From Lachnospiraceae bacterium (GTDB taxonomy: Bacteria; Bacillota; Clostridia; Lachnospirales; Lachnospiraceae): DNA of 33,601 nucleotides. The notes under the pieces were generated by a model, which made no database searches, had not been told where the DNA came from, and worked only from the letters and a program-made list of their open reading frames with translations. The position numbers and the translations under genes are program-made. Below are positions 3,144-29,701 of the stretch, in pieces (the first letter of the stretch is position 1; each line of letters opens with the position of its first letter). Location of the stretch: the NCBI GenBank assembly GCA_900199595.1, contig FZRB01000030.1, forward strand, positions 1 through 33,601, read 5' to 3'.

Positions 3144-3149
3144 ATCGTT

Positions 3150-5114
3150 ATGTCAGCATCATTATTAAGAATAGTACAACCAGAAAACTACATAGAAGAG
3201 CAGTGTACTTATTGTAAAGGTGTTAGCGGAGTTCGTCTTAGTGTTGTAAAAGATTATCTCCAATCTAGTAATATTAATTCATTACATATAGTTAATGAAG
3301 AAACCCTATTAGATTATAGAAATTATGTTGAAAACCTTAGTGGTCTTTCGGAAAATCAGTCAAAATACTATAAAAACTCTTTGGAGCAGATTGTTTTTGC
3401 TTATTTAGCTGCAACATGTGATAAGCAGATTATTAAAGAATCCGAGATTATTAAAGAAAGGGCTGTTAGAAATAAGACAACTGGATATTTGATACTTAAT
3501 GGCATTCAAGGAACAGAAGACATTACTTATAGTTTTAGGGAAAAATATGAAAAGTATTTAAAAAACACAATATCAGATTCTTCTATAGATAAATATTTGA
3601 AATCATTAGATCTTCTTAAACTTTCATCTATAAAGAAGCTATGCGAAGAGGAATCTTTCTATAGAGATAAGTTCTTATTCAAGGACGATAAAATATTCCT
3701 GCTATATCATCCTGAATATAAAGTGGCAGAGTCGTTTTATTATATTCAAAACAAGTCAGAATTGGTATTTGATTTTTCATTAAATACTTCTGAATTATTA
3801 AAACGTCAGGTTTTCAGTGTTTTAAAAAATGTATTGGAAACGAACACTGATCGACATGACAGACGGGAAAGATTTATTGTTCCATTAGGTTTATTATATA
3901 GTTTTTCAGTGGAGTATGGAATTGAGGACTTAGAGCAGTTGCTTTATAAAGATGTTCAACAATATAAGGAGTATTTGAGAAAGCAAGGTATAAAGAAAAT
4001 AGATGTATATTCTCAAATAATTGAAAATGTAAGAAAATATTTATTCTTAAATTCAGAAATCATTAACTGGTCAGCAAATGTATGGTATATGGCCCGATTC
4101 AATATAAAGGAAGAAAAACTGAATCCGGCAAGGGAAATATTAAAGCTCAGCTTCGATAGAGTAAATAATAATACTAATAGGGAATGTGCAAAGAAATATA
4201 TAAAGTATATGCTTGGTCCATTTGCAGATATTTCGATTCAGACCTTGAGATGTAGATTATACGACATTATTGATTTTCTTGAATTCCTAGATAAGAGAAA
4301 TAAAAGCCTGGTTGTGTTGGATATTAAAGATATTGAAGATTACGAGAATATTCTTGAAGATAGAAATATATTACCGGAAACGTTTAATACCCAAATGTAT
4401 TCTGTTGAGTCGTTTATTAATTATCTTGTTATAAAAACCATAATACCACCAATTAATCCCAGAGAGGGAATCTATTACAAGAAAGTATTTTCCAGACATA
4501 TCAATAGAAGAGTTTTCGTAGAAGTTCAAAATCAAGTACTAGAATCTTTAATACAAATGCCATTTGAATGGAGACTTATTTTTTTATGCGCGTCTCAACC
4601 AGGACTTAGAATAAGTGAAGCGTGTAGTTTAAAAGGAAATTCTTTTTATTTAGATGATGATACTGCTTGGCTCCGGATGTATCAGGGAAAATTAAAAAAA
4701 GAAAAAATGATACCTATTCCTAAAGCTCTTTATTATTTGATGACTGAGTATATAAAAAGAAATAATATCCTGGCTAATGAATATATATTCAAAAATAAAA
4801 AAGGTGGTGCATATGATGCTGGAACTTTTACAAAGAGTTTTAAGAAAAAGCTTAAAGAAATAGGAATTACTGAATATAACTATAAATCACATGATTTTCG
4901 CCATTGTGTTGCAACTGAATTATATGAAGCAAATGTTCCTCTTGAGGTTATCCGTGATTACCTTGGACATGATGAAACAGAAATGACTAAGAGATATGTT
5001 GATGATATGCAGTCAAAAGCGGATAAAGAGAATGATCAATATTTTAAGAATAATAAGCTGATGCAGGAGACTAATCATGGAAAGAATAAGAATAAGGGAT
5101 TTAGAATGCTATAA
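3150..5114 (+). CDS. Tyrosine recombinase, second of the trio (TnpB-like)
   Basis: A 654-aa recombinase, the length of Tn554 TnpB (~630) and about twice that of ordinary integrases because of a long N-terminal extension (about residues 1-300) of unknown fold. The C-terminal catalytic domain has Arg487 (PGLRISEA), His581 and Arg584 (HDFRHC), a His near 607 (LGHDE) and nucleophile Tyr616 (TKRYVDD). The ATG follows the previous stop by 6 bases without a strong ribosome binding site, which suggests translational coupling. Its end overlaps the next gene by 38 bases. It looks intact and catalytically competent. Confidence 0.88.
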   Translation: MSASLLRIVQPENYIEEQCTYCKGVSGVRLSVVKDYLQSSNINSLHIVNEETLLDYRNYVENLSGLSENQSKYYKNSLEQIVFAYLAATCDKQIIKESEIIKERAVRNKTTGYLILNGIQGTEDITYSFREKYEKYLKNTISDSSIDKYLKSLDLLKLSSIKKLCEEESFYRDKFLFKDDKIFLLYHPEYKVAESFYYIQNKSELVFDFSLNTSELLKRQVFSVLKNVLETNTDRHDRRERFIVPLGLLYSFSVEYGIEDLEQLLYKDVQQYKEYLRKQGIKKIDVYSQIIENVRKYLFLNSEIINWSANVWYMARFNIKEEKLNPAREILKLSFDRVNNNTNRECAKKYIKYMLGPFADISIQTLRCRLYDIIDFLEFLDKRNKSLVVLDIKDIEDYENILEDRNILPETFNTQMYSVESFINYLVIKTIIPPINPREGIYYKKVFSRHINRRVFVEVQNQVLESLIQMPFEWRLIFLCASQPGLRISEACSLKGNSFYLDDDTAWLRMYQGKLKKEKMIPIPKALYYLMTEYIKRNNILANEYIFKNKKGGAYDAGTFTKSFKKKLKEIGITEYNYKSHDFRHCVATELYEANVPLEVIRDYLGHDETEMTKRYVDDMQSKADKENDQYFKNNKLMQETNHGKNKNKGFRML

Positions 5115-6615
5115 AAATGCATCTGATGTTGATAAAAATAATAAGCTGATAAGCCCAGATAGATGTTTTGATCTGACAAAGCTTCCAAATACGGATATTA
5201 GAAAAGAAATGGAAGCATACATATTAAATAGAGGAAAGACGCTTAAGTTGATTAGTATTAGAACAGAGTTATATCCGTTTAATTTGTTTGCCAGATTCCT
5301 AAGTGAGCAATTTCCATCACTTAAGAGTTTTCTTGATGTTGAGGAATCAGAAATTATAAGGCAGGCAAAAGTTTGGTTAGGAAAGAATGGACGAAAACTC
5401 TCTGAGCTAACAAATAGAGCTACTAGAAATAAACCACAAGTAAAAGATGCGGAATTGGTAAGATATATAAAGAGTATTTATAGGTTTTATATAAAATTAG
5501 AAGATTCATTTAACTATGATTCGGATGTGTGGTTTTTAAAAGGGTTTCCTTCAAAATTAATAATTAATCCTACAAAGACTGTAAAGAGTATTTCATTTAA
5601 AGGTATTAAACAATCAAAGATAAAAGACGAGATAAAAAGAATAATATATATTCATTTAGGGCAGCTAGCAGTCGGAACAGTGTTAGCAGAAATGACAGCA
5701 ATTAATAGATTTGTAGATTATTTATATGAAAGACATCCCGAAGTTGGTTCATTGTTAGAATTAAATAGGGATACTATAGAGGATTATCTTTTATATTTAA
5801 GTATTGAAGATGGAAGAAGAAAATCCTATAGAACTGAAGTCTCACACTTGAAAAGTGTTTTTATTTTGGCAGGTAATCTTTTTGAATCTATGCATCTTAA
5901 AAGATTGATAATAAATACCGATTATCAATCTGAACCTCGAAAACTTCCCAGAGCATACAGCAAAACCGAAATAAAAACTTTGAACAGAGGGATGAAAACT
6001 CTTGATATTCAAATGCAGCGATTGTTAGTTCTTCATCAGATGCTAGGAACAGGTATTGGAGACACATTAACGCTAAAACAGAATTGTTTGCGTTATGATT
6101 TGCAAAATAAGACTTGGGTAATAAGAATAGAAAGAGTAAAAACAAAAAAAGTATATGAAAAAAGTATTAATGATGATGTAGCAAAGCTGATTAAATCGGC
6201 CTGTGAGTACACAAATAATCTGTATAAAGGATCAGAATATGTATTTGTTAGAGAAAGTGATTCTAACCAACCAATGCAATATGCACGTGTATATGATCAG
6301 ATGAAAACTATGATAATTACTAATGATTTGCGTGATGATAACGGAGAACTGTTTAAGGCAGGTACGCATATCTTTAGAAGCACTTATGGATGTACGCTTG
6401 CTGAATTAGGTGCAACAGATGAAATGATAGCTGCTCTATTAGGACATTCTAACACGCATTCAGTTAGGCATTACAGGAAACTTAATAATAAGATAATAGC
6501 CGAAGCAACAAGACCATATATAAAGAGTAAAGATGAAATACTATCGAAGATTATTGATAAGTGGGGGGATTATAATGAAGCAATACGAAAAGATGCTAGA
6601 GGGAAAAAGGGCTAG
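5077..6615 (+). CDS. Tyrosine recombinase, third of the trio, with atypical Arg I region
   Basis: A 512-aa phage-integrase-fold protein. The C-terminal domain (about 310-480) keeps box II: HIFRST with His and Arg, LLGHSNTHS with His, and the nucleophile Tyr in RHYRKL. Where relatives have TGxRxxE with the first catalytic Arg, this protein reads GTGIGDTLTL, with no Arg at the expected place. It may be an inactive partner, or another Arg may be used. The start ATG at 5077 has GGAG 8 bases upstream and lies inside the previous gene; its end overlaps the next gene by 41 bases, so all members are translationally coupled. Confidence 0.85.
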   Translation: MERIRIRDLECYKNASDVDKNNKLISPDRCFDLTKLPNTDIRKEMEAYILNRGKTLKLISIRTELYPFNLFARFLSEQFPSLKSFLDVEESEIIRQAKVWLGKNGRKLSELTNRATRNKPQVKDAELVRYIKSIYRFYIKLEDSFNYDSDVWFLKGFPSKLIINPTKTVKSISFKGIKQSKIKDEIKRIIYIHLGQLAVGTVLAEMTAINRFVDYLYERHPEVGSLLELNRDTIEDYLLYLSIEDGRRKSYRTEVSHLKSVFILAGNLFESMHLKRLIINTDYQSEPRKLPRAYSKTEIKTLNRGMKTLDIQMQRLLVLHQMLGTGIGDTLTLKQNCLRYDLQNKTWVIRIERVKTKKVYEKSINDDVAKLIKSACEYTNNLYKGSEYVFVRESDSNQPMQYARVYDQMKTMIITNDLRDDNGELFKAGTHIFRSTYGCTLAELGATDEMIAALLGHSNTHSVRHYRKLNNKIIAEATRPYIKSKDEILSKIIDKWGDYNEAIRKDARGKKG

Positions 6616-11255: not shown

Positions 11256-12338
11256 TTGAAGATTAGTTCCAAATACAGAAAGATATCGGCAGCAATGATT
11301 ATAATGCTTGTTTTATCAGTCTTAAACATGTGTGAACTGAAAACTTCAGCAGGGGAAAAAGAAGATCCTCCGATTCCGGTATTGAATTCCAGAACTATGA
11401 TCAAAGGGATGGTTCTGAAGGAGATACCTTTAAAAGAAAAAATAACAATAATTGATAAAGTGTTTTATGAAAATCTAAAACCAGATACGGCTTATACACT
11501 TCATGGGATTTTAATGGTTAAGAATTCTGATGGGGTATATGAAAAGTATAAAAAGGGAAATGATCTGATAGAGGCATCCTGTTCCTTCAGAACATCTGAT
11601 AATAAAAACGGCTATGAAGAATATGGTGAAGAGTGGATTGAATTTGAGGAAATAGAAATAAGTGATGTTGAAGGCAAAACCTTTGCTGTGTATGAAAATC
11701 TGTATCTGGGTACGGATACAGACGCCGTAAATCAGTATGAGGAATATCCGGATAAAAAGATATTTCCTATAGAGCATAAAAACGAGGAGGATAAACAGCT
11801 TATTCGAGCGGCATATATAAACAGCAGTATTAAAGGACTGAATAACGAATCGAAGGAGCTGAAGATAAATCAGGCAGGTAAAACGGTAATTACAGATACC
11901 ATATCATATGAGAATCTGACTCCGGATATGAGCTACAGAATAGTCGGGAAACTGTTTGATTCAAAAACAGGAAAAAGACTTGCATATGATTATGCGTCCG
12001 GAGACGAAGAAAAAGTATTTGTGGCACGAAAGGCAAGTGGCTGTGTAGAAGTCAGTTATGAAATAAAGACAGAGGACAGTATCAGTATTTCAATAGAAGA
12101 ATCCCTGTTCAATGCCGAGGGAAGCCTGATAGCCAGGAATAATTCTGAAAAGGATGGAAACAATATTATTCATCTAATAAAAGAAACAAAACAGGAAATA
12201 ACAGAAGAAAAAAAGAAAGAAGAAATATCGGAGAAAATAGATATAGAAACAAAAGAAGATGAACCGGAGAAACATTTTTGGGATTATCTGATTAAAAAAA
12301 TTAATGTTTTTTTACTGGAGAAAGGAAAACAAAAATGA
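11256..12338 (+). CDS. Secreted VaFE-repeat protein without sorting signal
   Basis: A 360-aa exported protein from a TTG at 11256, chosen because AAGGAGG lies 8 bases upstream; the in-frame ATG at 11220 lies inside the previous gene and lacks a binding site. The start gives a signal peptide, KISSKYRKISAAMIIMLVLS, cleaved after about residue 33. Two VaFE-type beta repeats follow: one ending in KTFAVYENLYLGT, the other starting ITDTISYENLTPDMSY. The C-terminus is charged and ends without an LPxTG-like motif, so it is probably not wall-anchored by sortase. Its stop overlaps the next gene's start (ATGA). Likely a surface or pilus-associated partner of the large protein downstream. Confidence 0.72.
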   Translation: MKISSKYRKISAAMIIMLVLSVLNMCELKTSAGEKEDPPIPVLNSRTMIKGMVLKEIPLKEKITIIDKVFYENLKPDTAYTLHGILMVKNSDGVYEKYKKGNDLIEASCSFRTSDNKNGYEEYGEEWIEFEEIEISDVEGKTFAVYENLYLGTDTDAVNQYEEYPDKKIFPIEHKNEEDKQLIRAAYINSSIKGLNNESKELKINQAGKTVITDTISYENLTPDMSYRIVGKLFDSKTGKRLAYDYASGDEEKVFVARKASGCVEVSYEIKTEDSISISIEESLFNAEGSLIARNNSEKDGNNIIHLIKETKQEITEEKKKEEISEKIDIETKEDEPEKHFWDYLIKKINVFLLEKGKQK

Positions 12339-15300
12339 AAAAAACCAAGAGAATAATGGCTGTTATATTATCAGCTGTTTTAATCATACAAATGGCTTCG
12401 TCATATTCATTAATGAGTTATGCGGATCAGGAGACAAATGATAAAAGGGAGGAACCTATTACTGATATTATACATGAAAATGAAGAGACTACAGAAAGAT
12501 TTACAGAATATGTGACAGAAGAGACGACAGAAAATGAAATAGAAAGCGGTAAATACAAAGAAACCATAACAGAAGAAATTGTACAGGATGGTGAAGTGTC
12601 TACTGAACAGATCACTGAAGAAGATAACTCAGAGAATGCAGAGACAGACAAAAGTGCTGATAGTACGGAGGCTGATCTGATCCAGAAGGATGACACTGAA
12701 AATAATTCTGATTTGAAAGATGTTGAGAAAAAGGAAGAGGAAAAATCTTTAAGCGATAAGGCTGATAAAAAGACAAAAAAGAAATCCAAAGCTGATAAAA
12801 AAGAAATCCAGCCGACCTTTGATAAATTATACGGTGATGTTTCTGTAGATGGGATTGATTTTTCATCATGTGAGCTTCTTGTTGCAACTAAGGATGTGGG
12901 TGTCTTTACAGCAGATACAGAGGTAGTATCTGAATATAATGGAATATATCTTACCAGATATGAAGATGCAGAACAAACGAAGTCAGCGTATACATATTAT
13001 TTTACAAGAGCTGATTTTGTAGAGGTCAACTCTGTTATCAGAGCAGCTGAAGATCATGGTGAGGCTGATCTGTCTGATATAAATAATGGTGATGACGCTA
13101 TCTCCAATATAACCAGTGCCCCGGCATCGAGCTGGCCGGGGTGCGTTGCTCTTATTGATACAGGTGCTGAAGGAAGTAATGTGGTTAGCAGTATATCTAT
13201 TATTGGCGAATCAGTGGCAGATGACAATGGACACGGAAGTCGAATGCTGAAGGCTATGACAGAAGCGAATCCTGATGTGAAGATATTATCAATAAAGGCT
13301 TTGGACTCAAATGCAGTCGGAACAATATCGGACGTTTATGCGGCTATAGAGTATGCTGTCAGAGCGGATGTTTCAGTGATAAATCTATCCATGTGTTCAG
13401 TAGCCACAGCTGAAAGTGATGTACTGAATCAGGCGATTTCAGATGCTGTTTCAAAAGGAATAATAGTTATTGCTTCAGCAGGAAACAATGGCAGGGATGC
13501 AGGTTTTTTTGTTCCGGCTGGCATAAGTGGTGTTATCACAATAGGTGCGTGTGATGCGAACGGAAACAGACTAAGTACGTCAAACTATGGATCTGCAGTT
13601 GATTATTATGTTGTGGCAGAATCGACATCTGATGCCGCAGCACGTTTTTCTGCGTATGCGATAAGATATGGCTTGTCTGAGGTTTCTAAAAATGAGAAGG
13701 TTTTTTCTGCCCATAGTATTGAAGAAAAAATTAGCACAAAGGGGGAAACAGATAAAAAGGATGATAACAAACAGACTGAAACTGATGCATCAGAGACGGA
13801 TGAACATCAGAAAGATGAGATTCAACAGACAGAAAAAACCACTCAGGAAGAAAATGAAACAGCAGATAAAGATGATAAGCTGAAAATAGAAGAAAAGATC
13901 TATAAACATAAAGCCTGTACCAGAGATATGCTTAATGAGATATTTTTGATGGCAAGTGCAACACCTCCCGAGGGCAGCGGATTTCCGCATTACATAAGCG
14001 ATGTAACGGTAGTAATAGAACAGACTTCACAGTCCGGAAAAAGCTTCGCCGGATATATGGTTTCAGCTGAAGTACCAAAAACCAGCAGATACTATAATAA
14101 GATAAAGGTAGGTGGTGTAACCTGCTGGTGTTCTGTACACGATAATCGTGAGGGAGGCTGTGCTGATCCGGGACCTGGAAAACATACGATTTCAAAGGTT
14201 AAGTTCGAATATGTATCCTCAAGCAAGGGAGTAGCAACTTATACAGCTGTCAGTAATGTAGACGGACAGGCACACGAATATGGTTATCAGAAGATGGAAC
14301 TTACTATAAAGCTTGAACAGCAGAACTCATACATTTCCATTCAAAAAGTACTTGCCGGAAGTCCTAAGAGTAATGCCGGAAATGTATACTTTGACGTATA
14401 TGACAACAAGAATGCAAGTGGCAGTCCCTTAGGCTATATGAAGACCAGTTCGTCGTCCGGAGTGGCTCATAATGTATATACGGATAAAGATATTTCTACC
14501 TTAACACATAGTACAAGTGATGGACTTAAAGGATCATTAGACCTGCCTCCGGATACTACAGTATATCTCTTTGAGGTTGGACAGGGAGATTCATATAGTA
14601 AAGCGAAGAATAAAGCTCCAAGTGGTTCAAAATATAAAACCGATGCTGCCCATGAAGCCGGTCAGCCCAATGTAACAAAATATGCTATAGACCTCCTGCC
14701 GGATGATTCTAAGTATATAGCCAGATATACGGTAAAAACATCAAGCTCCAAAGGAGGGACAGAGGAAACACTGACTAATCCTATTGAAGAATTCGTATAC
14801 ATATACAAAAAAGATGAATATGGAAATGAATTAAATGCCGATTATCAGATATACGGAACAACTAAAGAAGTTAATCTGAGCAGTAATGACAGGCAGACAC
14901 GCATTGATAAAATCAAAAAAGCTTCAGGCAGCAAGCTTATTACCACACTGTCAGTAAAGGACGGATTTGGTCTGGCAGATGTTTCGTCGTACAAAAGGGA
15001 TCATCTGGATGATGACAGGTATTATTACGCTGTTGAGGTTGAAGGGACAGTGGACAGTACGCATAAAGTTTCGTTGCCATTTAAAGCAGAATCAAGAACC
15101 TATAAACCGGAAAAAGGCGATTACGGATATGCAGTCAATACTGACGTCGAAGGACATTATTACTATAAGGTTGGTATATATAAATATGATGATGAAGGAA
15201 AAAATGTACAGGCAAGCTTTGATATATATTCAACACCGGTAAGTGGGGCTACCAGTGGCGGTACACTAATTAAATCAATAACAACGTCCGGCTCGACGGG

Positions 15301-18247
15301 ATACGGAGAACTGGATATAACTGAGAACTATATAAAATCATGTGCAGAAGGTAAACCTAATTTCTATTACGCAGTGGAAACAGCTACAGATGATTTACAT
15401 GAGATGGGAAGCCAGAAGGAGACAGCATTAAAAATAGTAAAAGGTGATGCTCCTGATTTTAAACTGACATCTCCTGATTATGTCAGAAAACTGAATCCTC
15501 TGAAGAAAAAGGTAAGGGCTGATATTGAATTATATAAGGTTGATGAAAATGGTGACCCTATATCTGAAGTTCAGTTTAAACTGACAGAGAAACAAACCGG
15601 ACAGAGTGTTATTCTTGTTACAGATGAGAATGGATATGTATCAACAGCATCCTCTTATGTTGCTCATTCTCAAAACACAAATGCAGGAACAGCAAAATCA
15701 GGTACATGGTTTGGAGATATGAAGGAACTGGATGAAAAATCAGGCGCTCTATTTACTGGAGAATATGTTATTAGAGAACTTAGATGCACAGCTAATAATG
15801 GAATGCAGTTGGAAAAAGAGCAGCAAATAACTATAACAGGAGAAGATGAAAATAAGATAATAAAGGTGTTTGATAAGAATACAGAAGAAACTGATGATAA
15901 GATATGGAATATAAATAATCCTGTCATAAGTACTACAGCTTCTGTTGTTGAAACAGATAGTAAGACACTTGCTCAGCAGGGGTGTGATGACACCATAGAT
16001 TATAAAAATCAAACCATAAAAGATGATATAAAATATCAGGGACTCCGATCGGCAACTGACTATACTCTTCTTGCAGAACTTATGGTTGTAGATAAAGATG
16101 GTAATGTTCGTCCTTACACTAAGGATGAAGAACCTCTTAGAATTACGAGTACATTTAAAACCCCTGAAAAAACGACCAGATCTGTCAACAATACAAGCGG
16201 GACACATACATTATATATTAAAGGAGTTGATCCTACAGGGCTGGAAGAAAGACAGGAAAAACTTGTTGTATTTGAATCACTATATTTGGGTACATACAAT
16301 TCAGTAGAAGAACTGGATAAAGCTATAGAAGAAAAAAGTATAAAGACAAGATATGATGAATACAGCGAAGAAGACGATATGGATTTCTTTCCTGTGGAAC
16401 ATAAGGATGAAAATGATGATTATCAGACAGTTCGTCCAGGAGATATACATACAAATGCCGGTGATGGTATAGATTCTGATAATGTTGCCTATCCCCGTGT
16501 TAGCAGTGTAATAAAGGATAAGGTTTATTATACAGGACTTGAAATAGGAAAAGAATATACTGTTAAGGGAATTCTCAGAATAAAAACAGACTCAGGAGAA
16601 GGTGAAGAATTAAAGGGAGCAGACGGACAGCCGGTTGTGGCAGAAAAATCATTTAAAGCAGAAGCTTCAGAAGGGTATGTAGAACTTGAATTTACATTTG
16701 ATGCATCAGTATTAAAAGGAAAAACAGTTGTTGCATTTGAAGAGCTTTTCTACAACGGGATTAAAATAGCGGTTCATGCAGATATAAATGATGAGGATGA
16801 AAGCATACATTTTCCTGAAGTGAAGACGACAAGCAGGAATACGATTCTTTCGCCGGATAAAACTGATGATTCTGCGAAAGAGGTAGAGGCCTCTGAAAAG
16901 GGCGGTTCAATAACGGATACAGTTTCATATAAGAATCTTATAGCAAATAAAACTTATATAATAAGAGGAACACTGATTAATAAGTCCACTGGAGAAATAC
17001 TTAAGGATGCAACCGGAAAAGAGATTAAAGGTGAGTGCACATTTAAAACACCGATAACAGGTGAAGTAAAGATTGATAAATCACCGGATGCAGTAGATTA
17101 TGAGCTTCCGGATGGAACAGTAATGGATCTTTCATCAGACCATGCAGATTATATGTGTAACGGTAGTGCAGATGTAATATTTGATGGTTATGATCTGAGC
17201 AATCTTGCCGGTGTTACAGGTGTGGTATATGAAGAAGTATATCTTGTGAAAAAAGGAAGGGAATATCTGGTAGGTGAGCATAAGGATCAGGAAGATATTG
17301 ATCAATTCATATATTTTGTGAAAATAAAAACTGAGGCAAATGATTCAGCTACCAATTCAAAAGTAGTTCCATATGAGGCAGAGACCGAAATAGAAGATAC
17401 AGTTTCATATAAGAATGTAATTCCAGGAAAGGAGTATACACTTACAGCTACGCTTCATGTTAAGAACGATGCAGGAAAAAAATATAAAAACGGAGATGTT
17501 CTTCTGGATAAAGATGGAAAGCCTGTAACTGCGACCTTCAGTTTTGTTCCGGATAAAAAGGATGGAACGGCTGTTGTTAAGATTCCGGTAAATACCGAAG
17601 GATTAAGTGGTATGGAACTCGTAGTCTTCGAGGAAATGAGGAATGAATATGGAGTTCAGGTTGCAGCTCATAATGATATAGAAGACAGTGCTCAGACAGT
17701 ACAGGTTCCGGGAGGGTATACATCAGCTGTAGAGAAGAAAAGCAAAAACAAGTCAGTTGAACCGGATGAAGATATAACTATAGTTGATACTATCGTCTAC
17801 ACAAATCTTGAACCCGGAGTAGAATATAAGGTTAAGGGTATATTGTATTCAAAAGAATCTGAAAAACCTGTAAAGATCGATAACAAATTAGTGACGAGCA
17901 CAGTAAGCTTTACGCCGAAAGAAAAGAATGGAAAAGTAGAGGTTCCATTTGATCTGAATACAAAAGAAATAGCAGGTATATCTGTGGTTGCATTTGAGGA
18001 TGTTACGATTAAGAATGAGAAGGATGAAGATGTTCTTGTTTTTTCGCATCGTGATATAAACAGTAAGGAACAGACGATAAAAGTTAATGAATCACCTGAA
18101 GAGAAAACTAAAAAGAAAAACACTCCTCAGTGGTTTTCTCCAAAGACAGGTGATGATGCAAAGATCGTTCCGATATTCCTTATTATGATAGGTTCTTTTA
18201 TTTCAATAGTGATCATATGGCGTAAAAGGAAAAAAACCATAAAATAA
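12335..18247 (+). CDS. Giant wall-anchored adhesin: subtilase-like domain + SpaA-like domains + VaFE repeats
   Basis: A 1970-aa surface protein. The signal peptide is residues 1-31. An acidic, Thr/Lys-rich linker follows (about 32-155). A subtilase (S8)-like domain spans about 265-450: Asp275 in LIDTG, His300 in NGHGSR, oxyanion Asn384 in SAGNNG, and Ser432 in ESTSDAAARF, where the usual GTSxAAP is altered (Gly to Ser, Pro to Ala). After another charged linker come several SpaA/Cna-B-like domains (about 666, 818, 942 and 1061), then five VaFE repeats centred on VVFESLY, VVAFEELF, VVYEEVY, VVFEEM and VVAFED (about 1310, 1464, 1630, 1762, 1883). The sortase signal SPKTGDD (about 1935), a membrane helix and RKRKK end it. 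It is the last gene of the Tad-linked operon. Confidence 0.85.
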   Translation: MKKTKRIMAVILSAVLIIQMASSYSLMSYADQETNDKREEPITDIIHENEETTERFTEYVTEETTENEIESGKYKETITEEIVQDGEVSTEQITEEDNSENAETDKSADSTEADLIQKDDTENNSDLKDVEKKEEEKSLSDKADKKTKKKSKADKKEIQPTFDKLYGDVSVDGIDFSSCELLVATKDVGVFTADTEVVSEYNGIYLTRYEDAEQTKSAYTYYFTRADFVEVNSVIRAAEDHGEADLSDINNGDDAISNITSAPASSWPGCVALIDTGAEGSNVVSSISIIGESVADDNGHGSRMLKAMTEANPDVKILSIKALDSNAVGTISDVYAAIEYAVRADVSVINLSMCSVATAESDVLNQAISDAVSKGIIVIASAGNNGRDAGFFVPAGISGVITIGACDANGNRLSTSNYGSAVDYYVVAESTSDAAARFSAYAIRYGLSEVSKNEKVFSAHSIEEKISTKGETDKKDDNKQTETDASETDEHQKDEIQQTEKTTQEENETADKDDKLKIEEKIYKHKACTRDMLNEIFLMASATPPEGSGFPHYISDVTVVIEQTSQSGKSFAGYMVSAEVPKTSRYYNKIKVGGVTCWCSVHDNREGGCADPGPGKHTISKVKFEYVSSSKGVATYTAVSNVDGQAHEYGYQKMELTIKLEQQNSYISIQKVLAGSPKSNAGNVYFDVYDNKNASGSPLGYMKTSSSSGVAHNVYTDKDISTLTHSTSDGLKGSLDLPPDTTVYLFEVGQGDSYSKAKNKAPSGSKYKTDAAHEAGQPNVTKYAIDLLPDDSKYIARYTVKTSSSKGGTEETLTNPIEEFVYIYKKDEYGNELNADYQIYGTTKEVNLSSNDRQTRIDKIKKASGSKLITTLSVKDGFGLADVSSYKRDHLDDDRYYYAVEVEGTVDSTHKVSLPFKAESRTYKPEKGDYGYAVNTDVEGHYYYKVGIYKYDDEGKNVQASFDIYSTPVSGATSGGTLIKSITTSGSTGYGELDITENYIKSCAEGKPNFYYAVETATDDLHEMGSQKETALKIVKGDAPDFKLTSPDYVRKLNPLKKKVRADIELYKVDENGDPISEVQFKLTEKQTGQSVILVTDENGYVSTASSYVAHSQNTNAGTAKSGTWFGDMKELDEKSGALFTGEYVIRELRCTANNGMQLEKEQQITITGEDENKIIKVFDKNTEETDDKIWNINNPVISTTASVVETDSKTLAQQGCDDTIDYKNQTIKDDIKYQGLRSATDYTLLAELMVVDKDGNVRPYTKDEEPLRITSTFKTPEKTTRSVNNTSGTHTLYIKGVDPTGLEERQEKLVVFESLYLGTYNSVEELDKAIEEKSIKTRYDEYSEEDDMDFFPVEHKDENDDYQTVRPGDIHTNAGDGIDSDNVAYPRVSSVIKDKVYYTGLEIGKEYTVKGILRIKTDSGEGEELKGADGQPVVAEKSFKAEASEGYVELEFTFDASVLKGKTVVAFEELFYNGIKIAVHADINDEDESIHFPEVKTTSRNTILSPDKTDDSAKEVEASEKGGSITDTVSYKNLIANKTYIIRGTLINKSTGEILKDATGKEIKGECTFKTPITGEVKIDKSPDAVDYELPDGTVMDLSSDHADYMCNGSADVIFDGYDLSNLAGVTGVVYEEVYLVKKGREYLVGEHKDQEDIDQFIYFVKIKTEANDSATNSKVVPYEAETEIEDTVSYKNVIPGKEYTLTATLHVKNDAGKKYKNGDVLLDKDGKPVTATFSFVPDKKDGTAVVKIPVNTEGLSGMELVVFEEMRNEYGVQVAAHNDIEDSAQTVQVPGGYTSAVEKKSKNKSVEPDEDITIVDTIVYTNLEPGVEYKVKGILYSKESEKPVKIDNKLVTSTVSFTPKEKNGKVEVPFDLNTKEIAGISVVAFEDVTIKNEKDEDVLVFSHRDINSKEQTIKVNESPEEKTKKKNTPQWFSPKTGDDAKIVPIFLIMIGSFISIVIIWRKRKKTIK

Positions 18248-24337: not shown

Positions 24338-24365
24338 GATCTAGAATAATGATGATGGTGTGATT

Positions 24366-25703
24366 ATGTCTGAATTTCAGGAACTAATTAAAAATTTTGA
24401 TAAATGCAGGGATTATATCAGGGACTTTTTTGTATATGGTTTTAAGAGCAGAAAAGATTTTACGGGAAAAAGTGCCAGAACCTATGATGATGAGAGAAGA
24501 CGGATAACGGACTGGCTGGGAGATATAGTACATGAAGATATATCTGATGCTACGTCAGAGAAAAACCTGTCGCTTCAGGTTACCCCTAATCTTCTTGCTA
24601 CAAATCCGCTATACAGAGTTTGGCAGACCAGAAGTTTTACGGACAATGATGTCAGACTCTTTTTTCGTTTGCCGGAAATGACTACTATGCCACATACCGT
24701 TGAAGAATTAACTGATGAACTGAGCCGTCGGTATGCAGTAGTCTGTGATTCCCAGATCGTCAGGAGAAAATGTAAGGAGCTTGAAGAAGAAGGAATACTT
24801 CGACAGATAAAAGAAGGAAAAACTATATACTATAAGAGGAATATGACTCTTCAGGAGATACTGACCCAAGAGCAGGCACTGAGTGATCTGGAGGATAACC
24901 CGGAAAGACTGTATGAGGCAATCGAATTCTTTCAACTCTGGTATCCTTTCGGGTTTGCTGGATATTCAATCCTGGAAAAGGAGAATCTTACAAACGATAT
25001 ATTCCGGGTTAAGCACAGTTTTCCGGAATTCTGTCTGGAGGATGATATACTCTGTCAGATACTTGAAGGTATCAAAGAGGGAGTTAGAATGACCTTTATT
25101 TTTTCCTCGAATCTGCGGAGCGAAAACGGTAATCAGATGACCGGAGTACCGGTCAGGATTCTTGCAAGCTATAGAACCGGAAGAAGATTTGTGGTTCTTT
25201 ACGATGCGGGAGAAAAAAGACGATTCAATGTGTTAAGACTCGATCAAATCAAAAAAGTCAGTAAGGCTGCTGATACGAAGAGTGACGAGGATTCCGGAAT
25301 CAGACCGTATGATGATGAAAAGATCCGGGATAATCTGGACAGAAATCTGGGATATGTATGGAATGCATCGTTCTCGTCAGTTATGAAGGGAAGCTACCGG
25401 CAAAAGGTTGAGATGACGATACATATCGATGAAAGAATGGAAAGCTATATCCCCGCGAGAATCAGAAAAGAAGGGAAGAACGGAACATTAACCAAGCTTT
25501 CGGACGGTACCTATATATATGAAGCGGCGGTCTTTGATGTAAATGAGATGTTTCCATGGCTGCGTACATTTATCGGGCGAATAGAGGATATAAGATTTTA
25601 TTCTCTGAATTCAGAGATGGAGAAAACCCGCGAGCTGACGCAGATAAGGGATAGGTTCTTTGGTGACATAGACAGATTGTTCGATATGTATGGAATAGAG
25701 TAA
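24366..25703 (+). CDS. WYL-domain transcriptional regulator (first of pair)
   Basis: A 445-aa protein. Residues about 100-165 look like a winged helix: TVEELTDELSRRY, then SQIVRRKCKELEEEGILRQI. A WYL-type ligand domain covers about 190-310 (IKEGVRMTFIFSS, GVPVRILASYRTGRRFVVLY, NVLRLDQIKKV), and a C-terminal WCX-like extension covers about 340-445. WYL domains bind nucleic acid or nucleotide ligands and are frequent regulators of defence and RNA or DNA repair genes. The start is GTG 24360 or ATG 24366 in GTGATTATG; neither has a strong binding site. It ends at the base before the second WYL gene begins. Confidence 0.78.
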   Translation: MSEFQELIKNFDKCRDYIRDFFVYGFKSRKDFTGKSARTYDDERRRITDWLGDIVHEDISDATSEKNLSLQVTPNLLATNPLYRVWQTRSFTDNDVRLFFRLPEMTTMPHTVEELTDELSRRYAVVCDSQIVRRKCKELEEEGILRQIKEGKTIYYKRNMTLQEILTQEQALSDLEDNPERLYEAIEFFQLWYPFGFAGYSILEKENLTNDIFRVKHSFPEFCLEDDILCQILEGIKEGVRMTFIFSSNLRSENGNQMTGVPVRILASYRTGRRFVVLYDAGEKRRFNVLRLDQIKKVSKAADTKSDEDSGIRPYDDEKIRDNLDRNLGYVWNASFSSVMKGSYRQKVEMTIHIDERMESYIPARIRKEGKNGTLTKLSDGTYIYEAAVFDVNEMFPWLRTFIGRIEDIRFYSLNSEMEKTRELTQIRDRFFGDIDRLFDMYGIE

Positions 25704-25709
25704 GTGATT

Positions 25710-26681
25710 ATGAGAATTTTTTCGGAAAATTATGGATGCTATTACAATATAATATACAGGCTATTATCTGATTATAAAGAGATTACGGATAAAGAGATAA
25801 CTGAAATTGTCCGTGAAAAGGGTTACGGAGAATCGATGCTATTTCTGCTTCCGAAGCTTAAGGAAGACGTATGGGAATTCTTCGGCGAGACAAGACCCGA
25901 TCCTGTGATACCGCTGACAGGTTATCAGAAATCCTGGCTGAAAACCGTTCTGATGGACAAGAGAATAGGCTTGTTTCTGGAGAAGGAGGAATTACGTGGC
26001 TTGCTGGAGCAGCTGTCGGAGATTGAACCTTTATTCCGGCAGGAGGATATATGTGCTACGGATATTTTCCTGGAGGGAGATGATTTCGAGGATGAGGTAT
26101 ATCGGGAGAATTTCCGGACTGTTGTTTCTGCCATAAGAGCAAGAGAAGTCCTGGATATAGAATATAATCCTATGCCGGATAAGAGAGTAAGGCATTATTT
26201 CATCCCGTGCAGGATAGAATATTCGATTAAAAATGACTGCATCCGAGTATATGGTGTGGAAGAGAAATCACAGAATAAGCTGTATCAGATAAATCTCGGT
26301 AAGATAGTTATGGCGAAATCAACAGGACGTTTTATCAGCATCGATAAGCTCCCGGATATTGACCGGCTTATTGAGAAGCAGTATCTGGAGGAACCGGTTA
26401 CAGTGCTGATCAAAACCGAACGAAATGCTCTCGAGAGGGCGATGCTTCAGTTTGCCAATTACAGAAAGAATACTTCCCGCTATGTAGAAAAAAGAGATGA
26501 TGATTTTGACGGTACTTCAAATGATATCTATAAATGTGAGATATACTATGGACAGGGAAATGAAACGGAACTGTTGATTAATATACTGTCTTTCGGGCCA
26601 ATGGTAAAGGTTGTCGGAAGTGAAAGATTCCTGAAACAATTGAAGGAAAGACTGAAAAAACAAAGATATCGATCTGTTTGA
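25710..26681 (+). CDS. WYL-domain transcriptional regulator (second of pair)
   Basis: A 323-aa protein lacking an obvious helix-turn-helix in the first 100 residues. The WYL domain spans about 135-225: FRTVVSAIRAREVLDIEYNP, HYFIPCRIEYSIKNDCIRVY and KLYQINLGKIV are its usual strands; a WCX-like C-terminus follows (about 230-320: EPVTVLIKTERNALERAM and LSFGPMVKVVG). The start context GTGATTATG at 25704-25712 is the same nine bases as in front of the first WYL gene. It abuts the first gene, so the two are probably co-translated and may form a heteromeric sensor. A terminator follows, separating the pair from rtcB. Confidence 0.78.
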   Translation: MRIFSENYGCYYNIIYRLLSDYKEITDKEITEIVREKGYGESMLFLLPKLKEDVWEFFGETRPDPVIPLTGYQKSWLKTVLMDKRIGLFLEKEELRGLLEQLSEIEPLFRQEDICATDIFLEGDDFEDEVYRENFRTVVSAIRAREVLDIEYNPMPDKRVRHYFIPCRIEYSIKNDCIRVYGVEEKSQNKLYQINLGKIVMAKSTGRFISIDKLPDIDRLIEKQYLEEPVTVLIKTERNALERAMLQFANYRKNTSRYVEKRDDDFDGTSNDIYKCEIYYGQGNETELLINILSFGPMVKVVGSERFLKQLKERLKKQRYRSV

Positions 26682-26726: not shown

Positions 26727-26859
26727 TTTAACCGGTTCGCAGCTTTTTTGAAATGAATAATGTTTTCGTTAATGATATCTTATCTATAGCAAAAGCAAAG
26801 CTGAATAAAACCTGTATATAGCAAGCAGGTGAGGGCTGAGAATCGAAAGGGGAATAGAT

Positions 26860-28089
26860 ATGTTCGTTTTATATGATGGTACAAAATATCCGATGAAAAT
26901 ATGGCAGAAGGATATTGGTAATATAGAGGATTCCTGTATAGAACAGGCACAACATCTGGCAGATCTCCCATTTATTCATAAGTGGGTTGCACTTATGCCG
27001 GATACTCATACAGGAATGGGAATGCCGATAGGAGGAGTGATCGCAACAAAGGGTGTGATCATTCCGAATTCGGTAGGCGTTGATATCGGATGTGGTATGA
27101 ATTTTATAGATACAGATATAGATGCAGCTGATGTTAAGGAGTTAATGACAGGAAATGGTTCCGGAGTTCAGGCTATAATCGGAAACTTTATGAGGAATAT
27201 ACCTGTAGGAACAGCAAGACATCAGAAACCACAGATGTGTGAGAGTATAGATATAGCTTTAAAGGAAATAGATAAATATCAGGAGGATTCTGAACTTATT
27301 CCTTTGCTTGAGGACGGATATTATCAGGTGGGAACTCTTGGAGGCGGAAACCATTTTGTGGAGCTTCAGGAGGATGATAAGGGTAAGCTTTGCATTATGA
27401 TCCATTCGGGCAGCCGTCATCTCGGCAAAGCAATCTGTGATTATTTCAACAAGAAAGCGATAATGCTGAATGATATGTACTACAGCTCTGTTCCATCAGA
27501 GCATAGACTTGCATTCCTTCCGGTGGATAGTGCAGAAGGAAAGAATTACATAAACTGGATGAAACTTGCGATGGATTATGCATTTGAAAACAGAGCCAGA
27601 ATGATGGATGTCGCAAAGCAGGCAGTGACAGATATTGTAAAAAAATATCTGGACAGGGATGTTATATACGGTGAAGAAATCAACTGCCACCATAATTATG
27701 CGGCTCTGGAGAATCATTTCGGTAAAAATGTGTGGGTTCACAGAAAGGGAGCAAACAGGGCCAGAGTCGGTGATAAGGCAGTTATTCCGGGAGCTATGGG
27801 ATCCTACAGCTATGTTGTAGAAGGTCTTGGTAATCCGGACAGCTTCACGTCCTCCTCTCACGGAGCCGGAAGAGCATATTCCAGAACAGGAGCTATGCAG
27901 CGCTTCACAACAGAAGAGGTTATGCGTGATCTTCATGAGCAGGGAGTTATCCTTGGAAAAGCGAAGAAAAATGATGTAGCTGAGGAGTGCAGATTTGCAT
28001 ATAAGGACATTGATGAGGTTATGGAGCAGCAGAGTGATCTGGTGCGTCCGATAAGAAAGATGAAGACAGTAGGTGTTCTTAAAGGTTAA
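26860..28089 (+). CDS. rtcB: RNA-splicing ligase RtcB
   Basis: A 409-aa protein, the length of E. coli RtcB (408). RtcB seals RNA ends carrying a 2',3'-cyclic phosphate or 3'-phosphate to a 5'-OH, using GTP and manganese. Metal and guanylate residues are visible: Cys78 in VDIGCGM, the GGGNHF motif, GSRHLGK, HHNYA, and the guanylated histidine His334 in SSSHGAGRAYSR. In E. coli these are Cys78 and His337. The ATG has GAAAGGGG about 8 bases upstream. It follows two WYL regulators (after a terminator) and precedes a tRNA-like noncoding RNA and a slipin, which points to RNA-damage repair, probably of tRNA. No rtcA or rtcR gene is near. Confidence 0.95.
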   Translation: MFVLYDGTKYPMKIWQKDIGNIEDSCIEQAQHLADLPFIHKWVALMPDTHTGMGMPIGGVIATKGVIIPNSVGVDIGCGMNFIDTDIDAADVKELMTGNGSGVQAIIGNFMRNIPVGTARHQKPQMCESIDIALKEIDKYQEDSELIPLLEDGYYQVGTLGGGNHFVELQEDDKGKLCIMIHSGSRHLGKAICDYFNKKAIMLNDMYYSSVPSEHRLAFLPVDSAEGKNYINWMKLAMDYAFENRARMMDVAKQAVTDIVKKYLDRDVIYGEEINCHHNYAALENHFGKNVWVHRKGANRARVGDKAVIPGAMGSYSYVVEGLGNPDSFTSSSHGAGRAYSRTGAMQRFTTEEVMRDLHEQGVILGKAKKNDVAEECRFAYKDIDEVMEQQSDLVRPIRKMKTVGVLKG

Positions 28090-28109
28090 TTATGTAAGTA
28101 TTTGTACTG

Positions 28110-28370
28110 TATGAGAGTATGGCGGCGGTGGTTCTTCATCCACAGCGCTGCTCCATGGTGCCGGAATCGGTATATCGTACGTACTTATCTATATGTTAAG
28201 CAGTCAGCTTAACAAGCCGAATGATGATCGGTTTAAACACCAGTGTTGAGGGTTCGAGTCCCTCCATACTTCGGTATGTAGCTTAATGGGTAGAGCATGG
28301 TCATTATCTACGCAAGATGCGTAAAGAAGGTATCAGAAAGAAGATTTTCACCGAACCGGATTCTTCCCTC
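28110..28370 (+). ncRNA. Candidate YrlA-like noncoding RNA with a permuted tRNA-like core
   Basis: The core at 28239-28301 folds as a tRNA with its acceptor ends joined. In order: ACCA (anticodon-stem 3' strand), GTGTT variable loop, T-arm GAGGG-TTCGAGT-CCCTC (28248-28264), acceptor-like stem CATAC-TTCG-GTATG (28265-28278), TA in place of U8-A9, D-arm GCTT-AATGGGTA-GAGC (28281-28296), one A, then TGGT pairing with the first ACCA. An outer helix, GAATCGGT (28164-28171) with ACCGGATTC (28355-28363), has one bulged G. Between them are hairpins GTTAAGC/GCTTAAC (28195-28213) and TACGC/GCGTA (28309-28323). Bacterial Y RNAs (YrlA) have such a tRNA-mimic domain next to a Ro60-binding stem. RNA ends are not known. 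Confidence 0.7.
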
Positions 28371-28609
28371 ATGTAGGTCTGCAGATCATGCAGGCGTCAC
28401 GGGAGGAAGAGCTGGAGAGGACCGGATATAACCCCAGCAGCAACAGGATACCGTACAGACTTCATATCCGGTGGGTCAGAGACACCCTGTGTGAAGGTTG
28501 TACTTAATGAAGCTCCGGGTTATTGATGGGGAATTCTTCTCTCGGATACATTTTCCAAAATGGATGAAGAATAATTATCTGACTGATAAGATGTAAGGGG
28601 TGAATAAAG
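28371..28609 (+). other. Structured noncoding stretch between tRNA-like RNA and slipin
   Basis: No credible gene. Hairpins seen: CTGCA/TGCAG (28379-28393), a perfect 9-bp ACCGGATAT (28421-28429) with ATATCCGGT (28464-28472), and CATTTT/AAAATG (28549-28562). None is followed by a T-tract, so rtcB, the RNA and the slipin gene may share one transcript. It could be the 3' part of the noncoding RNA or a separate leader for the slipin. Confidence 0.45.
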
Positions 28610-29701
28610 ATGAGATATATAATAAGAGATAATGAGGTCGGTTTTCTTAGAAGAAACGGTAAGTTTCTGAGAATGCTTAATGCAGGAAAGTATAATTACT
28701 GGAAGCAGGCAGGATATGAACTTGAGATAGTAGAAGCTGCAGGTGAAGTTAAGTGTAATGGTATTCCTTATGAAGTCCTGGAGAAGGATGAGGAATTCAG
28801 AGCTTCAACTGTCAGATATGAGATAGGAAACGATGAGATAGGTTTCTTATATATAAACGGAAAGCTGATGGGTGTTTCAAATAAGGGTGAATATGTATTC
28901 TGGAACCGTTTCGAGAAGGTGGATATGAAGATATATTCCATGAAGGAACTGATGTTTCAGGAAGAGCTTACTAAGGATATGATCCAGTATATACCACTTA
29001 AGAATTACACAAAGGTTGTTGTTGGTCAGGGCGAGGAGGCTTTGGTATATATCAACAATACACTTACAGATAAGCTTGGTGAAGGTCTGTATTACTACTG
29101 GAATGTTGTCAGGGAAGTGAAGGCTGTGGTTGTTGACATGAAGTGGAGAGAGTTAAATGTTGCAGGTCAGGAGATACTTACTAAGGATAAGGTGGGGATA
29201 AGACTCAACATGGTAACAAACTACAGGGTAACAGATGCCCAGAAGTCTGTATCGGACAGAACTAATCTGACAGATCAGCTCTATTCCTTTATCCAGATGG
29301 TATCCAGAGAGCTTATAGGAAACTACAAGCTGGATGAGATACTTGAAAGAAGAAGTGAGTTAATCGAGATCCTTGACAGAAAGCTCCGTGAGGGTGAGAA
29401 GGATTTCTGCGTTGAGTTCGGAAGCTTCGGTATCAGAGATATCATACTTCCGGGTGAGATAAGGGAGATCATGAATACAGTTCTTGTTGCCGAGAAGAAG
29501 GCACAGGCCAATGTGATCGAAAGAAGGGAGGAAGTAGCATCAACAAGATCACTTATGAATACAGCAAAGCTTATGGATGAAAATAAGACATTGTTCCAGC
29601 TCAAGAGACTTGAGTATCTGGAAAGAATCTGCAACCGTGTCGGTGAGATATCCGTATCCGGTAAGGGAGACCTTATAGAACAGCTGAGCCAGCTGATATA
29701 A
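28610..29701 (+). CDS. Slipin (SPFH/band 7 family protein)
   Basis: A 363-aa protein. Residues about 130-300 are an SPFH/band 7 domain: AGQEILTKDKVGIRLNMVTN, YRVTDAQKSV, and DIILPGEIREIMNTVLVAEK followed by the helical AQANVIERREEVASTRS segment typical of slipins. An unusual N-terminal ~120 residues hold two similar short modules, NEVGFLRRNGKFLRMLNAGKY and DEIGFLYINGKLMGVSNKGE, without a membrane helix, so it may attach to membranes indirectly. Slipins often neighbour rtcB in bacteria and are thought to take part in the same RNA-repair or stress response. TAAGGGGTG lies upstream of the ATG. Last gene of the unit. Confidence 0.87.
   Translation: MRYIIRDNEVGFLRRNGKFLRMLNAGKYNYWKQAGYELEIVEAAGEVKCNGIPYEVLEKDEEFRASTVRYEIGNDEIGFLYINGKLMGVSNKGEYVFWNRFEKVDMKIYSMKELMFQEELTKDMIQYIPLKNYTKVVVGQGEEALVYINNTLTDKLGEGLYYYWNVVREVKAVVVDMKWRELNVAGQEILTKDKVGIRLNMVTNYRVTDAQKSVSDRTNLTDQLYSFIQMVSRELIGNYKLDEILERRSELIEILDRKLREGEKDFCVEFGSFGIRDIILPGEIREIMNTVLVAEKKAQANVIERREEVASTRSLMNTAKLMDENKTLFQLKRLEYLERICNRVGEISVSGKGDLIEQLSQLI

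Follow-up and report, generated by a model that had tools for sequence, protein, structure and literature searches.

Introduction

Several described systems come close to the RNA considered here. For one of them, a study published by Burroughs and Aravind in 2016 reportedly proposed that Band-7 proteins serve as scaffolds in RNA-repair systems together with a novel tRNA-like RNA. Another is the bacterial Y RNA YrlA, whose structure has been recognized as a circularly permuted tRNA (PMC11472068) and whose permuted module serves as a binding site for PNPase and as a substrate of tRNA-modifying enzymes (PMC8394870). In addition, a 2026 paper notes that the rtc locus of Pseudomonas aeruginosa includes an SPFH gene (PMC13086221). 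Here, we analyze a stretch of DNA from Lachnospiraceae bacterium (GCA_900199595.1, contig FZRB01000030.1, positions 1-33,601 of the forward strand), the whole of which is called the window and supplies all coordinates below unless a locus is named. Between an rtcB RNA ligase gene and a gene for a slipin, a protein of the SPFH/Band-7 kind, it carries a circularly permuted tRNA mimic, which forms the center of what looks like an unannotated, conserved RNA of roughly 450 nt (about 28104-28549) with a 5' domain and a 3' domain on either side, as judged from fold, covariation and the extent of conservation among relatives.

Results

The tRNA mimic occupies positions 28239..28301 of the forward strand. 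ACCA (28239-28242) pairs with TGGT (28298-28301) to form a closing helix and is followed by five nucleotides (GTGTT), a T arm (GAGGG-TTCGAGT-CCCTC, 28248-28264), a fused acceptor hairpin (CATAC-TTCG-GTATG, 28265-28278), TA as the equivalent of U8-A9 (28279-28280) and a D arm whose loop contains GGG (GCTT-AATGGGTA-GAGC, 28281-28296). It is, in other words, a tRNA whose 3' half stands ahead of its 5' half and whose acceptor ends are fused. A functional tRNA has an open acceptor stem with a 5' and a 3' end; here these ends are joined by UUCG, and neither ARAGORN nor the Rfam tRNA model at its gathering score called a tRNA at this site. A preliminary description of this DNA had placed a permuted mimic that cannot be charged at 28239-28302, directly downstream of rtcB. 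Every part it named was found in place. The gene order was also right, with the mimic starting 150 nt past the rtcB stop codon; the extent given, however, covers just the middle of the conserved RNA and misses its 5' and 3' domains.

The Rfam YrlA model (RF02553) matched 28240-28301 with 40.0 bits (E 2.2e-07 in 561 bases searched) over model positions 23-86 of 114. Covariation was measured in an alignment of 43 stretches (A2), the window and 42 relatives, hand-picked from regular-expression matches that required all five T-arm pairs (5/5), the T-loop motif and mostly a D-arm-like string; L109 and L113 were removed from the prepared list, and some other loci never entered it. T-arm pairing and loop identity are therefore partly a product of selection, and since the T arm was chosen for pairing, the acceptor and closing helices, which were not, constitute the fair test. 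RNAalifold, given no structure, recovered the same four helices. Of 19 pairs, 16 changed on both sides with 91.7% of cells paired, and the covariation score reached 0.633 (n=43) as opposed to 0.160 for shuffles (0/500 reach the observed value) and 0.065-0.201 for slid controls. Double changes occur at all five pairs in both the acceptor and the closing helix, and the innermost acceptor pair (A2 columns 36-49) is unpaired in 21/43 stretches. Compensatory changes in the fused acceptor stem, which the preliminary description had proposed as a check, are thus present. Taken together, the Rfam match and the covariation put the mimic far above chance. Folding energy by itself misses it: the isolated stretch has an MFE (minimum free energy) structure other than the mimic (-18.0 vs -16.2 kcal/mol), and 28235-28310 folds barely better than shuffles (z -1.19).

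Across 299 genomes of the family, RF02553 produced a match at E <= 0.01 in 218, and it did so also in 8/14 control genomes, including E. coli. The model also matches junctions of tandem tRNA genes, where the 3' half of one tRNA precedes the 5' half of the next. Junctions of this kind were seen in L020, L022, L024, L026-L037, L039 and L040 and are a trap for any annotation of YrlA below its cut-off. ARAGORN, run on 30 of the RF02553-derived loci, found tRNAs in 17, which were removed as artefacts, and 13 were kept. The covariance model that we built from the 43 A2 stretches (R1) matches tandem tRNAs as well, with up to 50 bits, so that an R1 score alone is no proof. Matches at such junctions are what one would expect if the mimic were a decaying tRNA pair or a functionless chance likeness. 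However, ARAGORN called no tRNA at this site, all helices of the mimic show compensatory changes, as does the 3' domain, and the mimic is kept before slipin across families; the covariation refutes this explanation, which we consider scarcely conceivable.

The mimic lies within a longer structure. Upstream, the 5' domain (28104..28180, +) is closed by GTAC at 28104-28107 pairing with GTAC at 28177-28180 and contains, by pattern search and fold, the conserved GGTGCC...GGTATATC (28157-28176, +), for which the consensus is GGUGCC...GGUAUAYC. This 5' element (GGUGCC, a hairpin and GGUAUACC) precedes the mimic in 67/73 regions by a loose pattern and in 62/72 by a stricter one, which misses the window itself on account of its short inner loop; both figures are raw counts of pattern matches. 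Variants found elsewhere read GGUGCG...CGUAUGCC or GGUGCA...UGUAUGCC, and thus the base pair at this point covaries, as do pairs of the inner helix; the 5'-domain alignments (A3, A4) comprise the window and 55/62 prepared stretches. Two hairpins (28194-28214 and 28217-28231; together 28194..28231, +) fill the interval between the 5' domain and the mimic.

Downstream, the 3' domain (28330..28549, +) is closed by GTATC at 28330-28334 and GATAC at 28545-28549 and includes a conserved GGATACCG (28446-28453, +) that is near-constant among relatives. Positions 28320-28560 fold as a single closed domain with a z of -4.33, none of 200 shuffles (0/200) being as good. In 13 loci of what we call the Oscillospiraceae type, a working label for L132-L159 with their short D arm, the domain has 43 pairs, 31 of them changed on both sides, and its covariation score is 0.571 compared with 0.250 for shuffles (0/500 reach it) and 0.088-0.148 for slid controls, the structure having been predicted from the same 13-locus alignment that was scored. 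Compensatory changes also occur within the genus of the window, where AACCC/GGGUU is replaced by AACUC/GAGUU and by AAUCC/GGAUU. At gathering scores, a scan of the window and of four relatives of the same kind found no Rfam 15 family for this RNA; the YrlA match to the mimic was the only family likeness found.

The slipin gene follows at 28610..29701 (+; Pfam Band_7, E 1.1e-28), and the structure model of its product matches stomatin, prohibitin and HflK. Slipin is present in 6/61 genomes of the genus, in 16/299 of the family and, at E <= 1e-30, in 6/299 of the phylum. All six genus members that have it also carry DNA similar to the rtcB-slipin intergenic stretch, and a mimic was located upstream of 15/16 family slipins by covariance-model or Rfam matches or by reading, two of them at only 28-31 bits; G079 is the one exception. 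We further collected 80 slipin loci, the best 80 of 577 relatives, from Lachnospiraceae, Oscillospiraceae and other Clostridia; these overlap with our G-numbered loci (for example L080=L003, L081=L004 and L091=L058), and the counts are therefore not additive. A full-length R1 match upstream of slipin on the same strand was obtained in 72/80; 42 of the 80 loci had been used in building R1, and the independent count is 30/38. Elsewhere in 753,824 bases of these loci, R1 gave six further matches at E <= 0.01. Among the eight loci without a full match, L096 and L119 hold only 63 and 220 bases upstream, L133 and L144 show the T arm alone, and the other four are weighed in the Discussion. In one locus (L078/L079, G008), the slipin frame is split and rtcB is missing (L081), and the RNA stretch is kept at 82% identity over 454 bases.

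The rtcB gene of the window (26860..28089, +; Pfam RtcB, E 6.1e-110) is preceded by two genes for WYL-domain regulators, A (24360..25703, +) and B (25704..26681, +), which matched the PADLOC WYL model at E 9.9e-09 and 2.6e-09, respectively, and no Pfam family. By tblastn in the 80 slipin loci, some of which are incomplete, rtcB was present in 59/80, WYL A in 59/80 and WYL B in 53/80. Two RtcB lineages are involved: the window type stands 5' of the RNA, and the other, about 27% like that of the window, stands 3' of slipin in Oscillospiraceae-type loci, with the position of the RNA before slipin constant across both. Since rtcB may be absent, upstream or, in its other lineage, downstream while the RNA stays before slipin, the gene tracked by the RNA is slipin and not rtcB.

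These loci also share a 14-base element, TTCGCARCTTTTTT. In the window it is represented by TTCGCAGCTTTTTT (26736..26749, +), a candidate operator or promoter element 5' of rtcB and the sole exact match in the genome; with one mismatch allowed, the element is no commoner in that genome than a backward control. Within 2.6 kb upstream of slipin it occurs, with at most one mismatch (<=1), in 64/80 loci, as compared to 0 for the reversed pattern and to 2 occurrences in the remaining 560,399 bases of these loci. Most loci that lack an upstream rtcB have the element immediately 5' of the RNA, which would thus head the transcript there; in Oscillospiraceae-type loci a TATAAT-like box follows the element and the 5' domain begins soon thereafter. 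We infer that TTCGCARCTTTTTT is the operator of the WYL pair, and as a strong candidate promoter element for this pair it offers a starting point for tracing the inducing signal.

Such an arrangement invites the proposal that the RNA is a cis-acting leader controlling slipin, and rtcB where it follows, in which the mimic would act as a sensor of tRNA-binding proteins or tRNA nucleases. The RNA stands before slipin in the same direction in the 72/80 loci mentioned above, and the Oscillospiraceae-type RNA starts just past the promoter-like box. However, in the window 60 nt separate the end of the 3' domain from the slipin ATG, and many Oscillospiraceae-type loci have a gap of about 30-58 nt between the 3' strand of their best long helix and the slipin start, which leaves the ribosome-binding site outside the conserved structure and uncovered. 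Moreover, a consensus scan detected no terminator in the RNA-slipin interval of the window, and in one record (L058 = L091) two other genes separate the RNA from slipin. On balance, we judge control in cis to be unlikely.

The preliminary description had suggested a YrlA-like RNA or a related RtcB-associated RNA in a window without a Ro60 gene, and had named the Rfam YrlA model as a way to find out. A YrlA-type permuted mimic in an RtcB locus is indeed what we find, with model positions 23-86 and covariation documenting the permuted domain. The 40.0 bits obtained over the mimic nevertheless fall short of the YrlA gathering cut-off of 69 bits, which was reached in 0/299 family genomes, and model positions 1-22 and 87-114, the Ro60-binding basal stem, are unmatched in the window. 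The search for TROVE/Ro60 was negative in the entire genome of the window, which bears out the statement made for the window and extends it, and in 0/21 slipin genomes, the positive control having been detected. By membership, the RNA of the window is not a Y RNA; the second half of the suggestion is the one favored by the evidence, except that the RNA follows slipin rather than rtcB. Four window-type relatives (L018, L023, L025 and L038) did align with the Rfam YrlA model over 1-114, at 36.8-43.0 bits, and these alignments would speak against a clean split between this RNA and Y RNAs.

The same genome encodes a second YrlA-like RNA (contig C15; L057:4736-4800, -; 44.6 bits, with only model positions 23-86 matched), which by eye has an enclosing stem, GACAGCUA...GAUAUCGUC, and which sits between an HTH gene and a gene for a 682-aa protein without a Pfam family. 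Similar pairs of RNA and protein occur in the relatives L007, L008 and L013-L015, some with rtcB or the WYL pair. In a separate observation, DUF2828-type genes, which we take to be Ro60-like, adjoin a YrlA-like RNA in L012 and share the slipin loci L137, L139 and L158. The 682-aa protein may be a divergent Ro60-like partner, and one could imagine that the RNA before slipin is a Y RNA acting in trans with a Ro-like protein whose gene lies at another place in this genome, as its tRNA-mimic module is the same and as the four alignments over model positions 1-114 might indicate despite their low scores. This we hold to be very improbable: the 682-aa protein was found in only 3/21 slipin genomes, all three in the genus of the window, TROVE was found in none of the 21 and the enclosing stem of the RNA in the window is unmatched.

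The segment that follows the D arm bears on a further possibility. In 21/51 Lachnospiraceae-type loci (examples of such hairpins are in L086, L090, L095, L127, L128 and L131) it forms a hairpin with an anticodon-like seven-base loop (YUNNNRN; 0.9 expected from shuffles), and 11 of these 21 carry a GUN anticodon, GUN being the anticodon set of queuosine tRNAs. Many loci have a second T arm at the same place. The RNA could act as a decoy for toxins that attack tRNAs, anticodon nucleases among them, or as a sensor of such toxins, such that its cutting would signal damage or spare real tRNAs. Possible competition of YrlA for a nuclease of this kind was suggested by Hughes et al. (PMC7790460). On the other hand, the hairpin that the window has here (28309..28323, +) lacks an anticodon-like loop, Oscillospiraceae-type loci show such hairpins in just 5/25 (0.6 expected), the related species that contribute the loops do not provide independent observations, and no YrlA fragments were found by Hughes et al. 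(PMC7790460). We consider a decoy or sensor distinctly unlikely.

The slipins of L168 (Burkholderia) and L169 (Photobacterium), with 30-34% identity to that of the window, are preceded by tRNA-like units in ordinary order (ARAGORN, Rfam) and, by eye there and in other Burkholderia, by an element GGUGCG...CGUAUACC or GCAUGCC ahead of these units. Both loci have rtcB 3' of slipin, and the next gene in L168 resembles a nucleotidyltransferase. At L169:5662-5803, two tandem tRNA-like units follow the 5' element, one of which ARAGORN calls tRNA-Met(cat). The simplest history of the permuted form would be the loss of both outer halves from tRNA-like units that once stood in tandem as a pair.

The Citrobacter and E. 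coli loci combine slipin with an annotated nucleotidyltransferase, and rtcR is present in Citrobacter. In L171:5680-5830 (E. coli) and L167:5690-5850 (Citrobacter) we noted by eye a sigma-54-like promoter string and then a T arm with a fused hairpin. This likeness before slipin comes from inspection and the MFE fold only; R1 found the Citrobacter T arm alone at E 0.47 and had no match in E. coli. The E. coli locus including its upstream stretch is present in 1,624/5,426 complete genomes (in 1,617, the match covers 80% of the query or more), and the stretch bears no annotated feature in the one record inspected. If the faint likeness is true, a version of the RNA is available in 1,624/5,426 complete E. 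coli genomes.

Elsewhere in the window, three genes in a row at 2019-6615 resemble tyrosine recombinases by eye, and 12335-18247 encodes a 1970-residue protein that, again by eye, resembles a surface protein anchored in the cell wall; it has repeated domains and an N-terminal part reminiscent of a protease.

Discussion

What we tentatively propose, with somewhat less than even confidence, is that the RNA is part of a ribonucleoprotein (RNP) scaffold and recruits repair enzymes that handle tRNAs to an SPFH oligomer. In this proposal, about 28104-28549 would be a structured non-coding RNA co-transcribed with rtcB and slipin, probably under a WYL-controlled promoter upstream of rtcB. The mimic would copy the tRNA elbow together with the acceptor arm, allowing tRNA-binding proteins to dock without any charging, and the 5' and/or 3' domains would bind slipin, an SPFH protein that is expected to form a ring or cage. 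Since the permuted module of YrlA binds PNPase, the mimic should, by analogy, hold a tRNA-handling enzyme at slipin, either RtcB itself or PNPase, and tRNAs cut under stress could then be repaired or removed at one site once the operon is induced. The discrete RNA, the WYL control, the binding to slipin, the docking of RtcB or PNPase and the repair role are all inferred; the scaffold is supported by covariation in both the mimic and the 3' domain, by the association with slipin, rtcB, the WYL genes and TTCGCARCTTTTTT, by the gap between the conserved structure and the slipin ATG, by the PNPase binding of the YrlA module and by the matches of the slipin model to stomatin, prohibitin and HflK.

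Several observations weigh against this scaffold. First, L115, L143, L154 and L157 have no R1 match despite enough upstream sequence, L115 is also without a visible T arm, and in G079/L049, taken to be the contig of L115 under another name, the 5' element and GGATACCG are retained but the mimic is missing, which means that the mimic is not indispensable. Second, slipin lacks a transmembrane stretch (top 19-residue Kyte-Doolittle mean 0.96), leaving membrane tethering unsupported. Third, no TROVE partner accompanies the RNA in the 21 slipin genomes, and no rtcB was found in the Citrobacter and E. coli slipin stretches examined. Finally, the place of the RNA before slipin, in the same direction, could also be explained by a cis-acting leader.

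An SPFH-linked tRNA-like RNA is a kind already known, and we do not claim it as undescribed. What appears new is the YrlA-type permutation in an SPFH setting, joined to two further domains, and likewise the three-domain RNA with its covariation, its constant place before slipin despite a changing rtcB lineage and its shared promoter element. These results indicate that use of the permuted tRNA mimic familiar from Y RNAs bound by Ro60 extends to genomes in which no TROVE gene was detected, where it belongs to a larger conserved RNA linked to an RNA ligase and to the gene for an SPFH scaffold, and they provide the slipin genes of RNA-repair loci with a concrete, testable RNA.

How does this RNA relate to the systems already described? 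Other tRNA mimics include tmRNA and the viral tRNA-like structures; tmRNA is aminoacylated, and the mimic of the window differs from it in that its acceptor ends are fused. With YrlA (RF02553; structure 6CU1) the RNA shares the permuted T arm, the fused acceptor, the D arm, the closing helix and the link to rtcB. It differs from YrlA in having no match to the Ro60 stem, no TROVE gene and a score well below the 69-bit cut-off, and in that the mimic is embedded in a longer conserved structure whose constant neighbor is slipin. Y RNAs are discrete RNAs of about 90-150 nt; the conserved extent here is about 450 nt. The rsr-yrlBA-rtcBA operon of Salmonella likewise places rtcB beside a tRNA-mimicking RNA and the gene for a scaffold protein, which there is Ro60 instead of slipin, and its regulator is RtcR (PMC7790460) instead of a nearby WYL pair.

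The Band-7 system of Burroughs and Aravind reportedly has the same genomic setting of an SPFH scaffold gene, an RNA ligase and a tRNA-like RNA, and loci of the window type do place a tRNA-like RNA next to an SPFH gene where an RNA ligase is also encoded. The permuted mimic stands in contrast to the ordinary order of the tRNA-like units in L168 and L169. The Band-7 system was itself reportedly proposed as the SPFH counterpart of TROVE and Y RNA. The eukaryotic vault particle, which consists of MVP, TEP1 and vault RNA, offers a further parallel, in that slipin, by its structure model and the matches to it, has the SPFH shoulder followed by a long helix that characterizes MVP. It is conceivable, although we deem it improbable and put it forward as speculation, that the locus specifies a bacterial vault-like RNP, in which the three-domain RNA of about 450 nt, with its YrlA-type permuted tRNA at the core, would reside in an oligomer of a soluble SPFH protein laid out like MVP, with tandem beta units, the SPFH domain and a long helix. 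By holding RtcB or a different enzyme that handles tRNAs, the RNA would make this particle a repair station for tRNAs that is induced by stress. Were this true, Ro60 with its Y RNA, slipin with its tRNA-mimic RNA and the eukaryotic vault would be variations on one theme, that of a ring or cage protein combined with a tRNA-like RNA.
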